This document shows positions 18,901 to 63,486 of a stretch of 64,000 bases of DNA, one piece after another. The position numbers were made by a program, and so were the translations under genes. Location: positions 7,306,350-7,370,349 of the forward strand of contig NC_084773.1 of the NCBI RefSeq assembly GCF_028858725.1. Reading direction: 5' to 3'. The stretch is from Colius striatus (Eukaryota; Chordata; Aves; Coliiformes; Coliidae). Position 1 is the stretch's first letter. Every line of letters starts with the position of its first letter. The notes beneath the pieces were generated by a model, which ran no database searches, had not been told where the DNA came from, and saw only the letters and a list, made by a program, of their open reading frames with translations.

Positions 18901-21900
18901 TGGATGTAACTCTACAGGTTTCTCTTTCCTTTAGGGCAGATTATGAGTGTTTCCAGATCGAATTGTCCAAAAATTATGGCATGACTGAGTGGCGAGATGA
19001 TGTGAAGAAGATCATGATGAAGGCAGGCCTTCAGAATCTACCCAAGACCTTCCTATTTGTAGACACACAGGTACAGGAGTATTAGCATGGGCTCCATCTC
19101 AAAAGGGGTCAGAAACACATCTCAAAGCTCAATAAATCCCCCTAAAAGAGGATTGAGGATCAGAAACATATCTCAAAGCTCAATAAATCCCCCTAAAAGA
19201 GGATTGAGGAGCTTGATACAAACCAGGCACAACTTGTATCTCTTAAGGAGCCCATCTTCATCATCTTGTAAAAAAAGCCCCAGGGAAACTAAAGGCAGTG
19301 CATGTGTCTGTGGAGGGAGTGTAGTGGAGTGTTAGTGGGCTTATTCTTCTGATGTTCAAGGAAACTTCTTGCAGCTTCATCCACGGGTTTGGTGAGATCA
19401 AAGATTTTAGACCCAGCTGCTTGAAGCTGAGCACTATTAGAAGTCCAAAGTAACAACAGTCTCTTCAAAGATACCAGTAGATTTAGGGCCCTATACCTGC
19501 TGGTTCCACAGCATAATGTTGGCTTGTTACTGTAAACTGTAACTCACTAATGACTAGGCCAGCTTCTGGAATCCATGGTTATGTTCCCCACAGGCTTTTT
19601 TACTGCCTTCATTATCATGGGAACCAGGTCCCTTCTGGCAGTGCTTAGGGCACTCACAGCAGTGAGATGAGCAGCTGTCAAATGCAGCTCGTTCATACAT
19701 CCTTTTCCCTGCAGTGGAAAGCACGTGTGGGAGAAGAGGGGCAGGGGAGGGTGCATTTAGTCAAGTAGATGGATGCTGTGGAGAGGTGAGTGGAGCTCTG
19801 GAGGGAGATCATCCCACAGACTGTGACACATCCCTACAATTACTCTGTTGTCTCCCACACCAATGAGCTTTATCCTCATAGTGAAGTGTTCTGTGCTGGA
19901 AGAATGGAGACACAGAGCAGCCTGGTGTCTAGGGTCTGGCTGCAATCACTGTGAGGCAAGAAGCAAGGCCCAGAGCTCAATTTGTCTGTAAGGAGACAGT
20001 GAATGAGCAGAAGGATGGTTGTTCTCAGACACACAGCACCACTCCTGAGCTGTCTGAACATGGCTGTTCAACTCAAAATACTGGACAAAGGTCAGAGTAT
20101 GTTTTACTGGAGCAGAGGCTGAGGGCTATAGCTACCCAGAAGTGATCTCCGTGGCCTGTGGAGACACGACTGTCTTATGACTTAGGAAACTGCCTTTTTT
20201 AATCATTATTATTATCCCCTCTCATCTACTTAGATTAAAAACGAATCCTTCCTTGAAGATATCAACAACCTCCTCAACTCAGGTGATGTGCCCAACATTT
20301 ACAACCCTGATGACCAAGAGCAGATCCTGCTGGCCATGAGGGCTGTTGTCCGGGAGCTGGGCCAGCAGCCCACCAAGGCCAACCTGATGGCTGCCTACAC
20401 AGGCCGGGTCCGCAGCAACATCCACATGGTCCTCTGCATGAGGTAGGGTCCAGGGGCAAGGGCTCCAGTCTGGCAATCTTAATTAGTCCCTCCTTGTCCT
20501 TTGCCTTGCATCATTTTGGCTTGGGAGCTCTGTTTCCAAGCCCCTGACTCTGGAGGAGGAGTCAGGTTTGCACACCACGTTCCCATAGGACTGGAGATGG
20601 GGTTTTAATGCTTTCCTGGCTTCAAGGTGAAGTTTGAAAAGTTTCTGAGTATGATTATCTGTGATCCAGATGAAATACAAGCTTCCTGCTTCATGCACCA
20701 CTGAGCTGTCTGCTACAAAAATACCTGGCTAGAATTTGGGGCTCAGTTGCTCATGTTTGCTAGTGGATGTACTGCACAGTTCATGAGCAGCTTGCTTGCC
20801 TGCCAGGAATTATGGGCCATTCCCAGTGCAAGTGGTAGAACTGGGGCCATGACTTTGGTCTGGTGACATGATTTCTGCACTCACCTGCTTCAAGCAGATT
20901 TCAGATCACATTTATTTCTTACCCCTTAAGTGTTCTCCCTAGGGAGGAAGCCATCAAACATCACTTCCCTACCATCTTAGTACTTCCAGGGTACAGCCAG
21001 AGTTTCTAAGGAGTGAACTGTGACACGCACCTTAGGACAGGAACCTTACTGCCTCCACTTTCACTCCCTATTTCCCTCCCTCCTTCTTCCTTGCATTTAT
21101 TCCCTTTCCTTCTTGCTGTGTAAGAGTTCAGGATGGTTCTGGGGAAGTAGGAAAGCTATTTTATCCTTGCATTTCTGATTAGCTGTAACATCTCTTTTCT
21201 GCATGTCTGTCCCTCAGCCCCATTGGAGAAGTCTTCCGTGCCCGCTTGAGACAGTTCCCCTCTCTTGTGAACTGCTGTACCATCAACTGGTTCACTGAGT
21301 GGCCAGCTGAAGCCCTGCAGTGTGTTGCCTCCTCCTTCTTGCACGAGATCCCACATCTTGGTGCCACTACTGAAGATGTCAATGGGATGGTAGGTGCCAC
21401 ACTCAAAACACCTCCTGTATGGTCAGTTTGCCCTGTCTCTAGAAACACATGGACAACAGATGCAGGACACACCTGTAGCAAGGTCCTACCCTGTAGCAGA
21501 AATGTTTCATGGCAGGCTCATTCAAATGCAAAACTGGTTAGCTCTTGTATGCTTTGAAATGGGCATTGTCCATTTATCACCCTCCCTGTGGCACTGAGGC
21601 CCACACACATATATAAGCTCCCCTGCAACTGTACACTTGGGCTCTTTGTAAGCCCCTTGTTCTCTCTCTGGGCATCACAGGCTTCCCTACCCTATGGCCA
21701 GTACTGAATAAGATTCATTCCTTTCTCCTTGTAGATTCAAGTATGTGTAGAAATCCATCAGAGTGTGGCAAAGAAGTGCCAAGTATACCTAGCAGAGCTG
21801 GCCAGGCACAATTATGTCACTCCCAAGAGCTACCTTGAGTTCCTCAGCATCTTCAGTTCCCTGATTGGAAAGAAGAAACAGGAACTGAAGACAGCCAAGA

Positions 21901-24900
21901 ACAGGATGAAAAGTGGCCTGGACAAGGTTTGTCCCTCACCCCCAGGAGAGCTTTGGGCTCCCCTCACCTGCTCTGAGCTGCAGAGATGCAGTGAGATGCC
22001 CTACACAGCTTGTGTGCAGTAGAAGAAAGCTCATACTACAGCAAATGAGGACTATGCCTCCTGTCTGGGCCAGTCTTTCTGAAGGTCTGAAAGTATGATG
22101 GTGCCTAATCTTTGGGGGCCCCACAGACCTTGCTGTAGTTCCTCATCTCTCAGGATGTTCCTTATTAACCATTTAATGGAAAGCCTTAGAACAACTGACA
22201 TTGCTGTGAGCTGCTGAAGTAATGCCCATCATGCTCATCAGCTACTACGATTCAAACCCACCACAGTGCCAGATTGTTGCTTAAGCAGGGACCAGGACAA
22301 GACCTGCCCAGCCCTTTCCTTTCCTGGAGCTTTCTGTGGCTGCTGCCTGTACTCTCACCCTGCTCTGCTCCCACAGCTGCTGCAAACGGCAGAGGATGTG
22401 GCAAGGATGCAGGAGGAGCTGGAGTCCGCCCGCCCTCTCCTGGCACAGGCAGCCAAGGACACGCTGGCAACCATGGAGCAGCTGCAGGTACATGGCTGGG
22501 CAGCCCTGGGCTGGCCCAGGCTGCTCACACCAGACACAGGGCTTGGGGGGGCTTTGCAGGTGTCATACAAAATCCTGCTTCGTCTGACAGTTAAAAGGTC
22601 TCAGATTAGCACAGCAGGTACTGATGCAGAGCAGCCCTGCCACTGAGAATGGCTTTCTGCTCTGGTGTTGGTGGGGGTCTGTCCCTAGCTACTAGCCAGC
22701 TGCTGGCAGCAGCAGTGTCTCACATGCCACGGTCAGACCCCAACTGAGGGGTCATGCAGCCAAGCAACCAGCTCCTTTTCCTTGCTGGTTAGAGCCTTGC
22801 AAGCACAGACTAGCCACACTACTAACACAGTCCTCAGGTGGCCTGAGCAGCTTTAAGCCCAGACTGTTGTTGCTGAAAGAAGTTGTTGCCAAAAGGGATT
22901 GTTGCCCCTCATCCCACCCCCAGAAGCTGCTCCAGCTGGCAGCTTGCCCCTGCTAGCCCAGACCTCAGGGATCACCACAGAGCCACTCGTGCCATTGCAG
23001 AAGAGGAAACTGTCCCGTCACTGTTGGCTGTCACTACCTTCCCTCCTCCTTGTGTTCCTCTGCCTCTCTCCTGCTGTGGGATGGCCAGACTGAGGCAGAG
23101 GGAAGAGAGACACTATCATCACACATCTCTGCATGCAAAGGGGAGAGAGTCGGCACTCTCCCCTGTTCCCACATAGCAGATAAAGATTTGGCTATATTCC
23201 ATGTTCCCTTTACACCTCCTGGTAGTGTTTCAACCCTGGCAATAGGCAAAAGTGACAGTTTTAGAAACAAAACCCAGCCTATCTTCTTACTCCTCCATCT
23301 CCCTACACATTAGCACCCAATATGTATCTGCTTCCTGTGCCAACAGGCTAAATGAGTAGAAGAGCTTATTCCTGCAGGACTAACACTGTTCCAGCACAGC
23401 CAGAGCTGGAGCTTGTGAATGGTCTCCACAGGCTGACAAAAGCCTCCTGTCTGTATGATGGAGGAAGAAGAGATCCTGTCCAGCGTGTCTCTGCTGGAAG
23501 AACACCCATGACCATGGTCCTTACAAGGCCAAAGGGGTGCTCTGGCTCCAGCACACTCCTGAGGCTGTCTCTGGTGTTGCAGGTGGACACAGCTGTGGCT
23601 GAAGAGACAAGAAGTGCTGTGCAGGCTGAAGAGATGAAGGCCAAAATGAAAGCTCAGACTGCCCAAGCCATTGCAGATGATGCTCAGAAAGACTTGGCTG
23701 AAGCTCTCCCAGCCCTGGATGCTGCTCTTGCCAGCCTGAGGAACCTCAACAAAAGTGATGTTACTGAGGTAAGTAGGTTGAGAGGGAGGGTGGCAGAGCT
23801 GGGTCTGGTCCTGGACAGCCTCTCACTTTGCAGCAACTTTCCTTTTGTAAGTTTGTAGCATCCCCAGCATCTCCATCCATCTCCCTGGGCTCAGTTTACA
23901 CAACTGCCCAGAAGCAGTTTTGAAGGGCAGAAGCAGAAACTGGCTCCTGGGTCTTCCTACCTGTTGTTTCCCAGTTGTGCCAGAGGGTGCTGAGGAAGGC
24001 TCACCCCACAGTGCCTGTCCAGGGGGAAGGTGTACCACAATGCAGCCCTGAGCATTGCTGCTAGATCTGTCCCTGTGCTGTGCAGACACAGTCTGAACCA
24101 GCAGGCCCTTGGGAACAGGGATCCCCCACAGGCACAGGAAAGGAAGAGGCAATGGTGGGCTGACTTCAAGAAATACTGGCTTGAAATAGGCTAGTCAGAG
24201 AAAGAAGGGCAATTCTGAGCCTGGCAAGTGTCCCAGCCCTTAGCCAAGTGCAAACTCAGTGAGTGTAACAGCTGTGGGGGGGAGGAACAGGCTCACTGCT
24301 CTGCAAGTGTGAATAACAGACCCTTTTATTCCCCATAAGAGTTACAGAACTCCTTTCCCTAGAAGGTGGGGAAAGACCCAGACAGTGTCAGTCTACTTGC
24401 CCCCAGCACCATCCTCTTGTAGAGCTGGCATGAAGTCTCCTGTCTACACAAGCCTTCCAGTGCCAACTCCCCAGATGAATCAGTTTCTTACCCAACATCT
24501 AACCCACTCACCAGCTTCAGGAAACTCTTCATTTAAGGAATAAGCTCCCTGCTTCTTTTAAGCTCTGCTGCTGGGCCATGACACAAGTAACCTGTCACCA
24601 GAGCCAGGACCATCAGAGTTCTCTCCCAGCCCAACCAAGAGGTGACCCAAGACAGCACTTCAGTGGCAGGGAGCCAGCATTCCTTTGAGCTACTCCTTTG
24701 TGGAGGGCAGCTCCATAGTGGTTCTTTGGAGGAAGCTGCCACCTGCTCGAGCTGCTCCACCACATCCCTCAGCTTCTCCTTGTTGCAGTAATGGTACACG
24801 TAGAGGTTACGCTCTGTCTGCAGGACAGGGCTCTCCAGAGATCTCTGCTTGGCTCTCAAGTCACTCAAGAGGACTTGCAGCTTTTGGCAGAGATTGTTAT

Positions 24901-27900
24901 GCATGGTGATCAGTTGCTGCAACAGCTTAGTGGCCTGCTGAGGGGCACAGCCCAAAGGCACACGAGCATGTAGAAAGAAGGGGATTTCCTCCCACCTATG
25001 GCCTCAGGTTGCCCCAGGGGAGGTTTAGACTGGAGCTGAGGCAGAACTGTTTCCCTGAGAGGGCTGTCAGCCCCTGTGCCAGGCTGCCCAGGGAGCTGGG
25101 GGAGTGCCCAGCCCTGGAGCTATTGCAGAACAGTGGAGCTGTGGGCCAGGGATTAGTGCTGGGCTTGGCAGGGTGAGGGTAGGGGTTGGACTCAAAAGAG
25201 CTTAAAGGGCTTTTCCAACCAAAATGATTCTATGAAACAGCTCAGCCCACCAGAAACAAGCTGCCCACTGGGCTCTGGCCTGCAAACACAGCCAGTCCAA
25301 GGAACTGAGGTACCTTACTGGGCCACCTTGGCTCAGACACCCCTATCTCTGTAACCAACAGAGATGGGAAACACCTTTGGCCAGCCACAGCCTCCCTGAT
25401 AGTTTGTGGGATAAGGCAAGGATCAGACCAAGCTCATCTCCCTCTGTGGGCCAAGAGGCAATGTTCCCTCCCCTGCAGCCAGGGAGGGTGGCACAGAGGG
25501 CTGTGTGTGCCCCACAAGGCCCTGTGGAGCAGCAGCGGGTGCTTACCGGGGAGCTGAGCTGCAGCTGGCTGGAGCTGTCAGATAGCTGCTGGTACAGCAC
25601 CTCTGTGGAGGACTCCAGGGCAGGGAGCTGGGACAGAGGAGCTTCCAGCTGTGCATCCAGCACCCTCTGCTCCTGAACCAACTGGGAGCACTTGGCTGCC
25701 ATGGCTTCATAGCTTTGTAATGGCTGCTTCACTTGGTCTTGCCCTACCAGCATGTCCCAGAGCCTGCAAGAGAGCACAGCCAGAGGGCTGAGCAGCATGC
25801 CAGCATGCAGGAAGAGCAGGGCTCAGGGGACACTGTGCCCTGGAGGACTGGGATACAAGGAGCTGTGGGGCAACAGTGAGAGGACTGCCACTCCTGGTAA
25901 GCAGCTCATGCTCAGGAGGTCTGGGAAGAGCACCATAAAGGACTAGGCTGGCTTAAGAGCCAGTCAGGGACTCCTTGCTGGCCAATACCAGCTACTCCAG
26001 AGCTCTGCAGGGAGGACTGAGAAGCCCCTGTCACTGCAGGACACCCAACCAAAGAAAGCTCTTGCTCCAAGCAGCTTGTGCTTCTCCTCTGTGGCTGAAG
26101 TCCCCACACCTCTACCTTGGCATGGTACTCATTGCTTTCTCCAAGCCCACGCTTTGCTGCATCAGCCCTAGCCAGGCAGGAAGAAGTGGGTACCATCTTT
26201 GGGGAGTCAGGGTGACAGGAGAACACTGCCAGACTGCCTGGTAGTTTGAGGTTGCCTTATGCCTCTGCCATTCCCATGGGACCTCCCCCACATCTGGTTT
26301 GTTCCTCAGGCACACGTCCCCCTCCCCCAGGCCCTTACCATACAGCACAGAGGACTTTGGGGTCTGTCCATTTGCACTCACAACTGTTCTGGGAGGAGCT
26401 GGCATCTTTGAAGTGATCCCGCTGCTCCTGCAGCCTGCTCTGGGCTTCCCTCATGGCAGTTTCCATCTTCCCCAGCTGAGCAGCCTTCTGGTGCAGCTCC
26501 TTTCGCTCCCCCTTCAGCTGCAGCTCCAGCAGCCCCAGGCGGCTGTGGCGGCTGGCCAGCCGGGCAGCCAGCGCCTCCTGCCAGCCAGCCAGGAGCTGCG
26601 GGTGCGAGGCTTCCAGGCTGAAACGCCCGTGCAGGAGGGGCAGGGACGCCCGGCGAGCCTCTGCCCTCGGCAAAGGGGCAGCGGGCGCCTCAGGGTCTGC
26701 CCGATGGCGCGATGCTGGTCGTGAAGCTGCCTTTGGAGCATGGGAGCCTGACCCCTGAGCTCCCCCTCGACCGTGTGCTGTGCAGGAGGAAGATGGGACA
26801 GGCTGGTAACTAGCCCTGCCTGGCTCTTCCACCCCCAAGTGGTGTCAGCTGTGCTCCAGCCTTCACCTGCAGGGACTGCCTGTAGCACAAGCAGCCCCTG
26901 CCTCAAAGGGGTGGTGCAGGAAAGGGAGCAGTGAGCCTACCTGGGTCTCCTTGAGAGTGTCCAGAGTCCTCTGGGCCCACTCCAGTGCTGCACAGTTGCC
27001 TTCTACTTCTGCTGACATGACTGTAATTGCCCTCTGGGCTCAGCACATTCTCCTTGCTCACCACGCTGCAGAACCACTCGAGGAACTGCTTTGTCTCAGG
27101 GCACTCAAAGAGCCATTCCAAGTCCTGCTTACAGAAGGCATCTCCATAGGGGTAGATCGGCCTCAGTGTTGACATAAATCCTGCCCCTCTGTTGGCTGTG
27201 CCCCATGGGAAGGCCTGGGAGGAGCTCTGTCTGAACATGGCAAGGGTGGTCAGCACTGGAGGGGAAAAAGCAGAAGTCATCCTGAAAGGTCCTGACATCC
27301 ACAGCACTCAGCTGCCTGCCTGAGGAGAGACCCAAGCAGCCCCTCCACAAGTGTTACAGACCAGCTCACAGGGTACAGCATTGCTGTGGTGAGTTGCAAG
27401 GCAAATGAGAGCCCACAAAGCAAGGGAGAAAGCCTGGCCTGTGCCCCATTTCCATACAGCCTCCTCCCCAGGGCCATACAGCTCTAACTCCTTTGCCAAG
27501 CCAGTTGTAGCCTGTAAGATCCCCTTACCAGAGCATCAGGGCAGGCTTTTTCAGCCCACCTATAGTTTCCTCCATGCCCATCTTTCCCTTCAAATGCCTC
27601 TGCCCTTCCTGCCTGTGCATTGCATCCCCTCTGGTGCCAGTGTCCCTGGGGCCAGCTGAGGGCTGAGCACTCCATCTCACTGGGAACTGGGCCACAGCTG
27701 TGTCTCCATCTGGGTTGGCAGGTGCGAGCATTGCAGCGGCCTCCCCTCGGGGTGAAGATGGTGATTGAGGCCGTCTGCATCATGAAGGGAGTCAAACCCA
27801 AAAAGGTGGCAGGAGAAAAGCTGGGATCCAAGGTGGATGACTACTGGGAGCCAGGCAGGGGCCTTCTCCAGGACCCAGGGAAGTTCCTGGACAGCCTCTT

Positions 27901-41197: not shown

Positions 41198-52728
<11,531 letters not shown>

Positions 52729-55843: not shown

Positions 55844-63486
<7,643 letters not shown>

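Follow-up and report, generated by a model that had tools for sequence, protein, structure and literature searches.

Genes of the HAUS3 type have been described within the introns of other genes. According to the available portions of two reports, the coding exons of HAUS3 lie within intron 1 of POLN in zebrafish, mouse and human (PMC4591814), and the same mouse annotation is reported but the shared exon is doubted (PMC3009607); mouse Haus3 is given there five exons, one of them small, 5' and non-coding. In the available sections of a published augmin model, HAUS3 and HAUS5 contribute to an N-terminal bundle, a folded-back arm and a C-terminal four-helix arm with HAUS1 and HAUS4, and HAUS3 residues 96-434 were used for modelling the arm together with HAUS2/6/7/8 (PMC9512787). 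In the open-licence literature, judged mostly by titles and abstract beginnings, no description of a further HAUS3 gene was found. The analysis of a stretch of 64,000 nucleotides of the Colius striatus genome (contig NC_084773.1, positions 7,306,350 to 7,370,349 of the forward strand), here called the window, has revealed an old DNA copy of HAUS3 that lies antisense in an intron of DNAH1 and whose likeliest present state, in a judgement that is evenly balanced, is that of a gene whose augmin function disappeared recently or is now disappearing.

A preliminary description of the window had proposed a spliced antisense gene in this intron, and an antisense structure of GT/AG exons with an open frame, a stop and an AATAAA motif was recovered. 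The host was recognized as DNAH1 in a search in which the top 4 of 50 PDB chains were all DNAH1 (213-218 bits), the next chain scoring 118 bits. Four coding exons with GT/AG joins give an open frame of 452 residues that begins with the ATG at 27238; the five exons and 455 residues counted previously were therefore reduced, with a possible fifth, non-coding exon at the 5' end. The features of the gene are the following, frame 0 being that of the 452-residue open frame and frame 1 the next one:

23769..27721, plus strand: host intron, flanked at both ends by DNAH1 stalk exons, the next DNAH1 exon beginning at 27722
26941..27238, minus strand: coding exon 1, frame 0 over 27238-27038 (HAUS3 residues 4-54 from 27187), the resemblance to HAUS3 passing to frame 1 at 27039
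26339..26777, minus strand: coding exon 2, resembling HAUS3 in frame 1 as far as about 26676 and in frame 0 from 26673
25547..25763, minus strand: coding exon 3, 23 of 72 residues identical to ordinary HAUS3 (a score reached by 0 of 300 shuffles), with matching intron places and phases
24533..24937, minus strand: coding exon 4 with the stop, HAUS3 homology stopping near 24743 and the remaining 69 codons non-coding in appearance
24325..24330, minus strand: AATAAA, past the TAA stop at 24535-24533
27529, minus strand: putative last base of a 5' exon without coding sequence, at a candidate donor; the partner acceptor opens the following exon at 27255

Judged from sequence matches, the homology of this gene to HAUS3 is far beyond chance. 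The exon 1 open reading frame (ORF) matched the Pfam family HAUS-augmin3 (PF14932) with an E-value of 3.5e-9 and 37 bits (cut-off 29.4), over profile positions 1-28 of 260 only, and the solved HAUS3 chains 8at2_C (8.9e-8) and 7sqk_C (2.4e-7), and the exon 4 ORF matched the C-terminal ends of the same chains (0.0012 and 0.0034, respectively). The membership of HAUS3 that had been proposed from N- and C-terminal motifs is borne out by these values. When a profile of human and Xenopus HAUS3 was run against the 1640 six-frame ORFs of the window, exons 1, 4 and 2 ranked as the top three (2.9e-11, 3.5e-8 and 0.0023) and exon 3 was fourth, with a non-significant E-value of 2. Exon 3 was also weak against the single proteins, its score being reached by 17 of 300 shuffles with human HAUS3 and by 11 of 300 with Xenopus HAUS3, where the alignment fell in the wrong place. 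Read in their inherited frames, the pieces cover columns 4-55 and 289-594 of the HAUS3 profile in collinear order, including the C-terminal coiled-coil half.

When the entire genome, 1.21 Gb in 191 contigs, was searched with Pfam, HAUS-augmin3 was located at two places only, the copy (profile positions 1-28) and the contig labelled C4 (3.3e-76, positions 1-259 of 260). The C4 gene, taken here as the ordinary HAUS3, extends over C4:90807992-90813792 and encodes 615 residues in four coding exons, which measure 915, 437, 229 and 267 bases with the stop counted. The first intron follows ...LQSLKSK in the ordinary gene and ...LDTLKETQ in the copy (phase 0), the second splits the codon of the final R in ...FSCR and of the final W in ...LCAVW (phase 2), and the third follows ...LQLRSP and ...LQLSSP, respectively (phase 0). 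All three coding introns thus match in place and phase, the first being of phase 0 in the copy only if it is read in the inherited frame, and these shared positions indicate that the gene was copied at the DNA level together with its introns, which excludes a retrocopy. The view that this is a diverged, intron-bearing paralogue whose usual locus lies elsewhere is consequently retained. The proposed arrival by segmental duplication held in one respect only, the copying as DNA with introns. A genome DNA search with window positions 24900-27260 yielded 5112 candidates, of which 40 were scored; these were the locus itself and 39 places of a repeat in the third intron, with no recent duplicate among them. 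This repeat, which we take to be CR1-like by its 3' motif, is given below:

24998..25235, strand not assigned: interspersed repeat within intron 3 of the HAUS3 copy, found at other places of the genome with 85-90% identity

Searched against the genome, the exon 4 piece had the ordinary HAUS3 as its best other place (E 0.0067), and with the exon 2 piece the ordinary HAUS3 was not found, the matches being the piece itself and one place on contig C30 (E 0.36). The ordinary HAUS3 of this genome extends 11 residues past the human C-terminus, so the C-terminal end of HAUS3 appears to be labile.

The preliminary description had treated the 455-residue frame as an intact gene, and this could not be maintained. 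Two lesions, both on the minus strand, were located:

27030..27045, minus strand: deletion junction at which HAUS3 residues 55-273 are lost and the frame is shifted, by comparison with the ordinary HAUS3 of this genome
26671..26680, minus strand: second frame change, near 26676, in a C/T homopolymer tract, restoring frame 0

The deletion has removed 219 residues with respect to the C4 gene, about a third of the length, and alone suffices to break the frame; approximately 67 codons after it are read out of frame until the second change cancels the shift. Hence the full HAUS-augmin3 domain is not present in the copy. A tblastn search of the window with HAUS3 residues 56-285 gave nothing convincing (two matches, best E 0.82, one of them containing stops), and a Pfam search of the frame-1 ORFs gave no family. 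The splice sites are canonical, as had been claimed, and mostly strong, but the frame that they join is not inherited throughout. Between ENVLS and LPRAEARR the sequence is not HAUS3-like in frame 0 and is HAUS3-like in the next frame. When this middle piece was added to the profile alignment in frame 1, the score rose from 98.3 to 112.3 bits (+14.0), compared with 101.2 bits in frame 0 and 103.9 bits in frame 2, and 0 of 500 shuffled pieces reached 112.3 bits. Its GC content by codon position is 0.72/0.49/0.72 in frame 1 and 0.73/0.72/0.49 in frame 0, and fits frame 1. A codon model trained on DNAH1 called frame 0, frame 1, frame 0 and non-coding in succession, with borders at spliced bases 216, 400 and 1152; this frame calling was used as support only because its controls are imperfect. 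The strongest independent point for a break of the inherited frame is the intron phase. The 69 codons past the HAUS3 homology have a flat codon-position GC (0.52/0.58/0.52), and the C-terminal 69 residues of the open frame look non-coding. A micro-intron that would preserve the inherited frame in exon 1 was also considered and rejected, the seven GT-AG pairs that could form it enclosing 22-73 bases and being either too short or costly in conserved letters; introns of 22-73 bases are very short for vertebrates.

The age of the duplication was approached by comparing the copy with three HAUS3 proteins. Over 363 columns it is 26.2% identical to human, 26.4% to Xenopus and 27.5% to the ordinary HAUS3, these three being 44.6-54.5% identical to each other on the same columns (human versus Xenopus, 51.5%). 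The copy was also compared at informative sites, at which two of these proteins share a residue and the third differs. With C4 as the differing one (57 sites), the copy follows C4 at 9 and human at 14; with human as the differing one (32 sites), it follows C4 at 12 and human at 5; and with Xenopus as the differing one (68 sites), it follows human at 13 and Xenopus at 9. No clear leaning to any of the three is observed. The best tree groups the copy with the ordinary HAUS3 (bootstrap 71, approximately unbiased (AU) test 0.77), and the AU test did not reject a placement outside amniotes (0.30) or with human (0.065), so that the tree is compatible with more than one time of duplication. The protein branch of the copy has a length of 1.60, compared with 0.32 for the ordinary gene.

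Over 365 codons, the differences between the copy and the ordinary HAUS3 amount to 0.545, 0.436 and 0.701 at codon positions 1, 2 and 3, which are 74, 61 and 92% of the level expected for unrelated letters of the same composition, and the GC content at third positions (GC3) is 0.75 in the copy and 0.39 in the ordinary gene. No stop was found in the 382 codons of the inherited frame, with the borders of the pieces taken from the frame model. In simulations of neutral drift at 0.05, 0.1 and 0.15 per site (1000 runs each), 8.8, 1.5 and 0.1% of the runs remained free of stops. Third positions near saturation, second positions held and the absence of stops indicate that selection maintained the sequence as a protein gene for a long time, and the stop-free chance of 0.015 at a drift of 0.1 indicates that any loss of constraint would be recent. 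We infer from this pattern that the copy probably served as a fast-evolving gene for an augmin-type subunit through most of its life.

The following course of events is proposed. HAUS3 was duplicated as DNA with its introns, and the copy, antisense in the DNAH1 intron, would for most of its life have encoded a fast-evolving augmin-type subunit. In this assembly residues 55-273 are lost and about 67 codons are off-frame until the second frame change. The copy retains the first 54 residues and the sequence from about residue 342 to the end. On the published augmin model, HAUS3 and HAUS5 form a folded-back arm, and the lost part would correspond to the greater part of its outgoing half, which was modelled with HAUS2/6/7/8, with part of the returning half scrambled. 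A normal arm would therefore not be possible; a product, if any is made, could still have the N-terminal bundle and, with HAUS1/4/5, the four-helix arm of the C-terminus. Decay is slightly preferred here over rewiring into a short armless protein.

Several results weigh against decay. The two frame changes cancel, the shifted stretch is stop-free and the splice sites of the copy are preserved. Between 25 and 28% of 222-nucleotide stretches of similar GC are open by chance, and this fraction, multiplied by about one half for a cancelling direction according to our own estimate, gives cancelling lesions without a stop a chance of roughly 13% under decay. The frame evidence has weak sides as well. 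Compared with whole proteins, the middle piece matches poorly, its score being reached by 5 of 300 shuffles for human, 32 of 300 for the ordinary HAUS3 and 85 of 300 for Xenopus, and on the ordinary HAUS3 it aligns at residues 508-534, which is the wrong place; restricted to the expected region, its score is reached by 6 (human) and 72 (Xenopus) of 2000 shuffles, and by 122 and 1986, respectively, in frame 0. The codon model no longer calls the frame switches once the penalty is 1e-5 or less, the first 412 bases count as non-coding in one of the DNAH1 half-models, and in the controls a false switch occurred in 1 of 14 left-out DNAH1 exons and a short one in 1 of 2 spliced halves.

A first alternative is a working short paralogue, in which the deletion and the compensating shift would have produced a linker rich in Ser, Gly, Ala, Pro and Arg between the N-terminal bundle and the C-terminal coil. 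This is a serious but less probable reading; the chance of about 13% for cancelling, stop-free lesions under decay is the reason for keeping it at about one third. Such an armless HAUS3 might join HAUS1/4/5 and act, perhaps in the male germ line, as a modifier or competitor of augmin. The single frame of 452 residues over four spliced exons, with its ATG and AATAAA, agrees with it, as do the cancelling shifts and the long-term constraint, and the deleted and the scrambled parts both fall in one arm, HAUS3 96-434 in the available part of the structural report (PMC9512787). However, the middle piece retains the codon-position GC of the other frame (frame 1), so the shift seems too recent for the linker to have a history of selection, and the tail of 69 residues has a non-coding appearance.

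An artefact of the assembly or of the individual sequenced, with the gene of the species intact and the deletion and frame change being errors or a rare allele, is improbable. The second change does lie in a C/T homopolymer tract, with a GC content of 71% over 26500-26799, where reads may err. Against this, 219 residues are missing at the larger lesion, which is no base error, the contigs are of chromosome size (C1, 206.6 Mb), and the adjoining DNAH1 sequence is clean: downstream of the copy, 14 DNAH1 exon matches were found in order, covering 758 codons after trimming by eye, with no stop and a single frame in each match. The last of the 14 matches is truncated by the end of the stretch and scores -0.9 bits alone. 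Finally, a recent retrocopy or a chance open frame has nothing in its favor beyond being a second copy, and can practically be dismissed in view of the three introns matching the ordinary gene in place and phase, the identity of 26-28% and the Pfam and PDB E-values of exon 1.

The ends of the transcript were considered by ranking the splice sites of the intron, donors being scored with approximate consensus weights and acceptors with a simple pyrimidine count of our own. The three coding donors rank 3, 4 and 5 (5 tied) among 186 GT sites, and the three coding acceptors rank 3, 6 (tied) and 24 among 374 AG sites. The best acceptor of the 374, tied with one other, sets an exon start at 27255, 17 bases ahead of the ATG, and the donor ranked 2 of 186 sets an exon end at 27529; this pair suggests a non-coding first exon, which would be the possible fifth exon of the gene and would recall the small 5' non-coding exon of mouse Haus3 (PMC3009607). 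The best-scoring minus-strand donor of the whole intron is at 24512, just beyond the stop of the copy, and an intron in the 3' untranslated region is possible. The CpG observed/expected ratio is 0.00-0.04 in the introns and flanks of the copy, 0.52 in the middle piece, 0.34 in the core of exon 2 and 0.00-0.23 in the other coding pieces; for comparison, it is 0.26 in the pooled DNAH1 exons, 0.08 in the DNAH1 introns and 0.34 in the ordinary HAUS3.

Elsewhere in the window, a minus-strand ORF at 42826-44514 resembles BAP1, with no Pfam match at 0.001, and another minus-strand ORF at 56668-57180 contains a semaphorin-type PSI domain (1.2e-5); both presumably fit the order DNAH1-BAP1-SEMA3G of human 3p21. 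A tandem repeat at 44664-44730 consists of 5.2 copies of the 13-base unit ATAGAATCACAGA, and a 51-base unit is present in two copies, 98% identical, at 19109-19210. A scan of viral contigs gave no match.

A second copy constrained until its third positions were near saturation would mean that some lineage has had an extra augmin subunit gene. It is a rather doubtful possibility that birds, or a wider group, possess a long-lived second HAUS3 antisense in DNAH1 that is now an armless augmin subunit, plausibly in the male germ line; if so, the two halves of augmin, HAUS1/3/4/5 and HAUS2/6/7/8, could be uncoupled by the armless variant. A copy that is half-broken and frame-compensated is also well suited to the question of whether a gene is saved by compensating frameshifts or whether these are no more than a sign that it is declining.

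In comparison with the known systems, the copy shares with the ordinary HAUS3 of the same genome the order of parts, the places and phases of the three coding introns and the N- and C-terminal homology, and differs from it in lacking residues 55-273, in reading about 67 codons off-frame, in being only 27.5% identical, in its GC3 (0.75 versus 0.39) and in its location within DNAH1. With human and Xenopus HAUS3 (PDB 7sqk_C and 8at2_C) it is collinear over residues 4-54 and profile columns 289-594, but only 26% identical, compared with 51.5% between human and Xenopus on the same 363 columns. Like HAUS3 in intron 1 of POLN in zebrafish, mouse and human, it is a HAUS3-type gene within the intron of another gene; however, as far as the available portions of those reports describe it, the gene in POLN is the ordinary one and is co-directional with Poln in mouse, whereas the gene found here is a second copy that lies antisense in DNAH1 (PMC4591814, PMC3009607).

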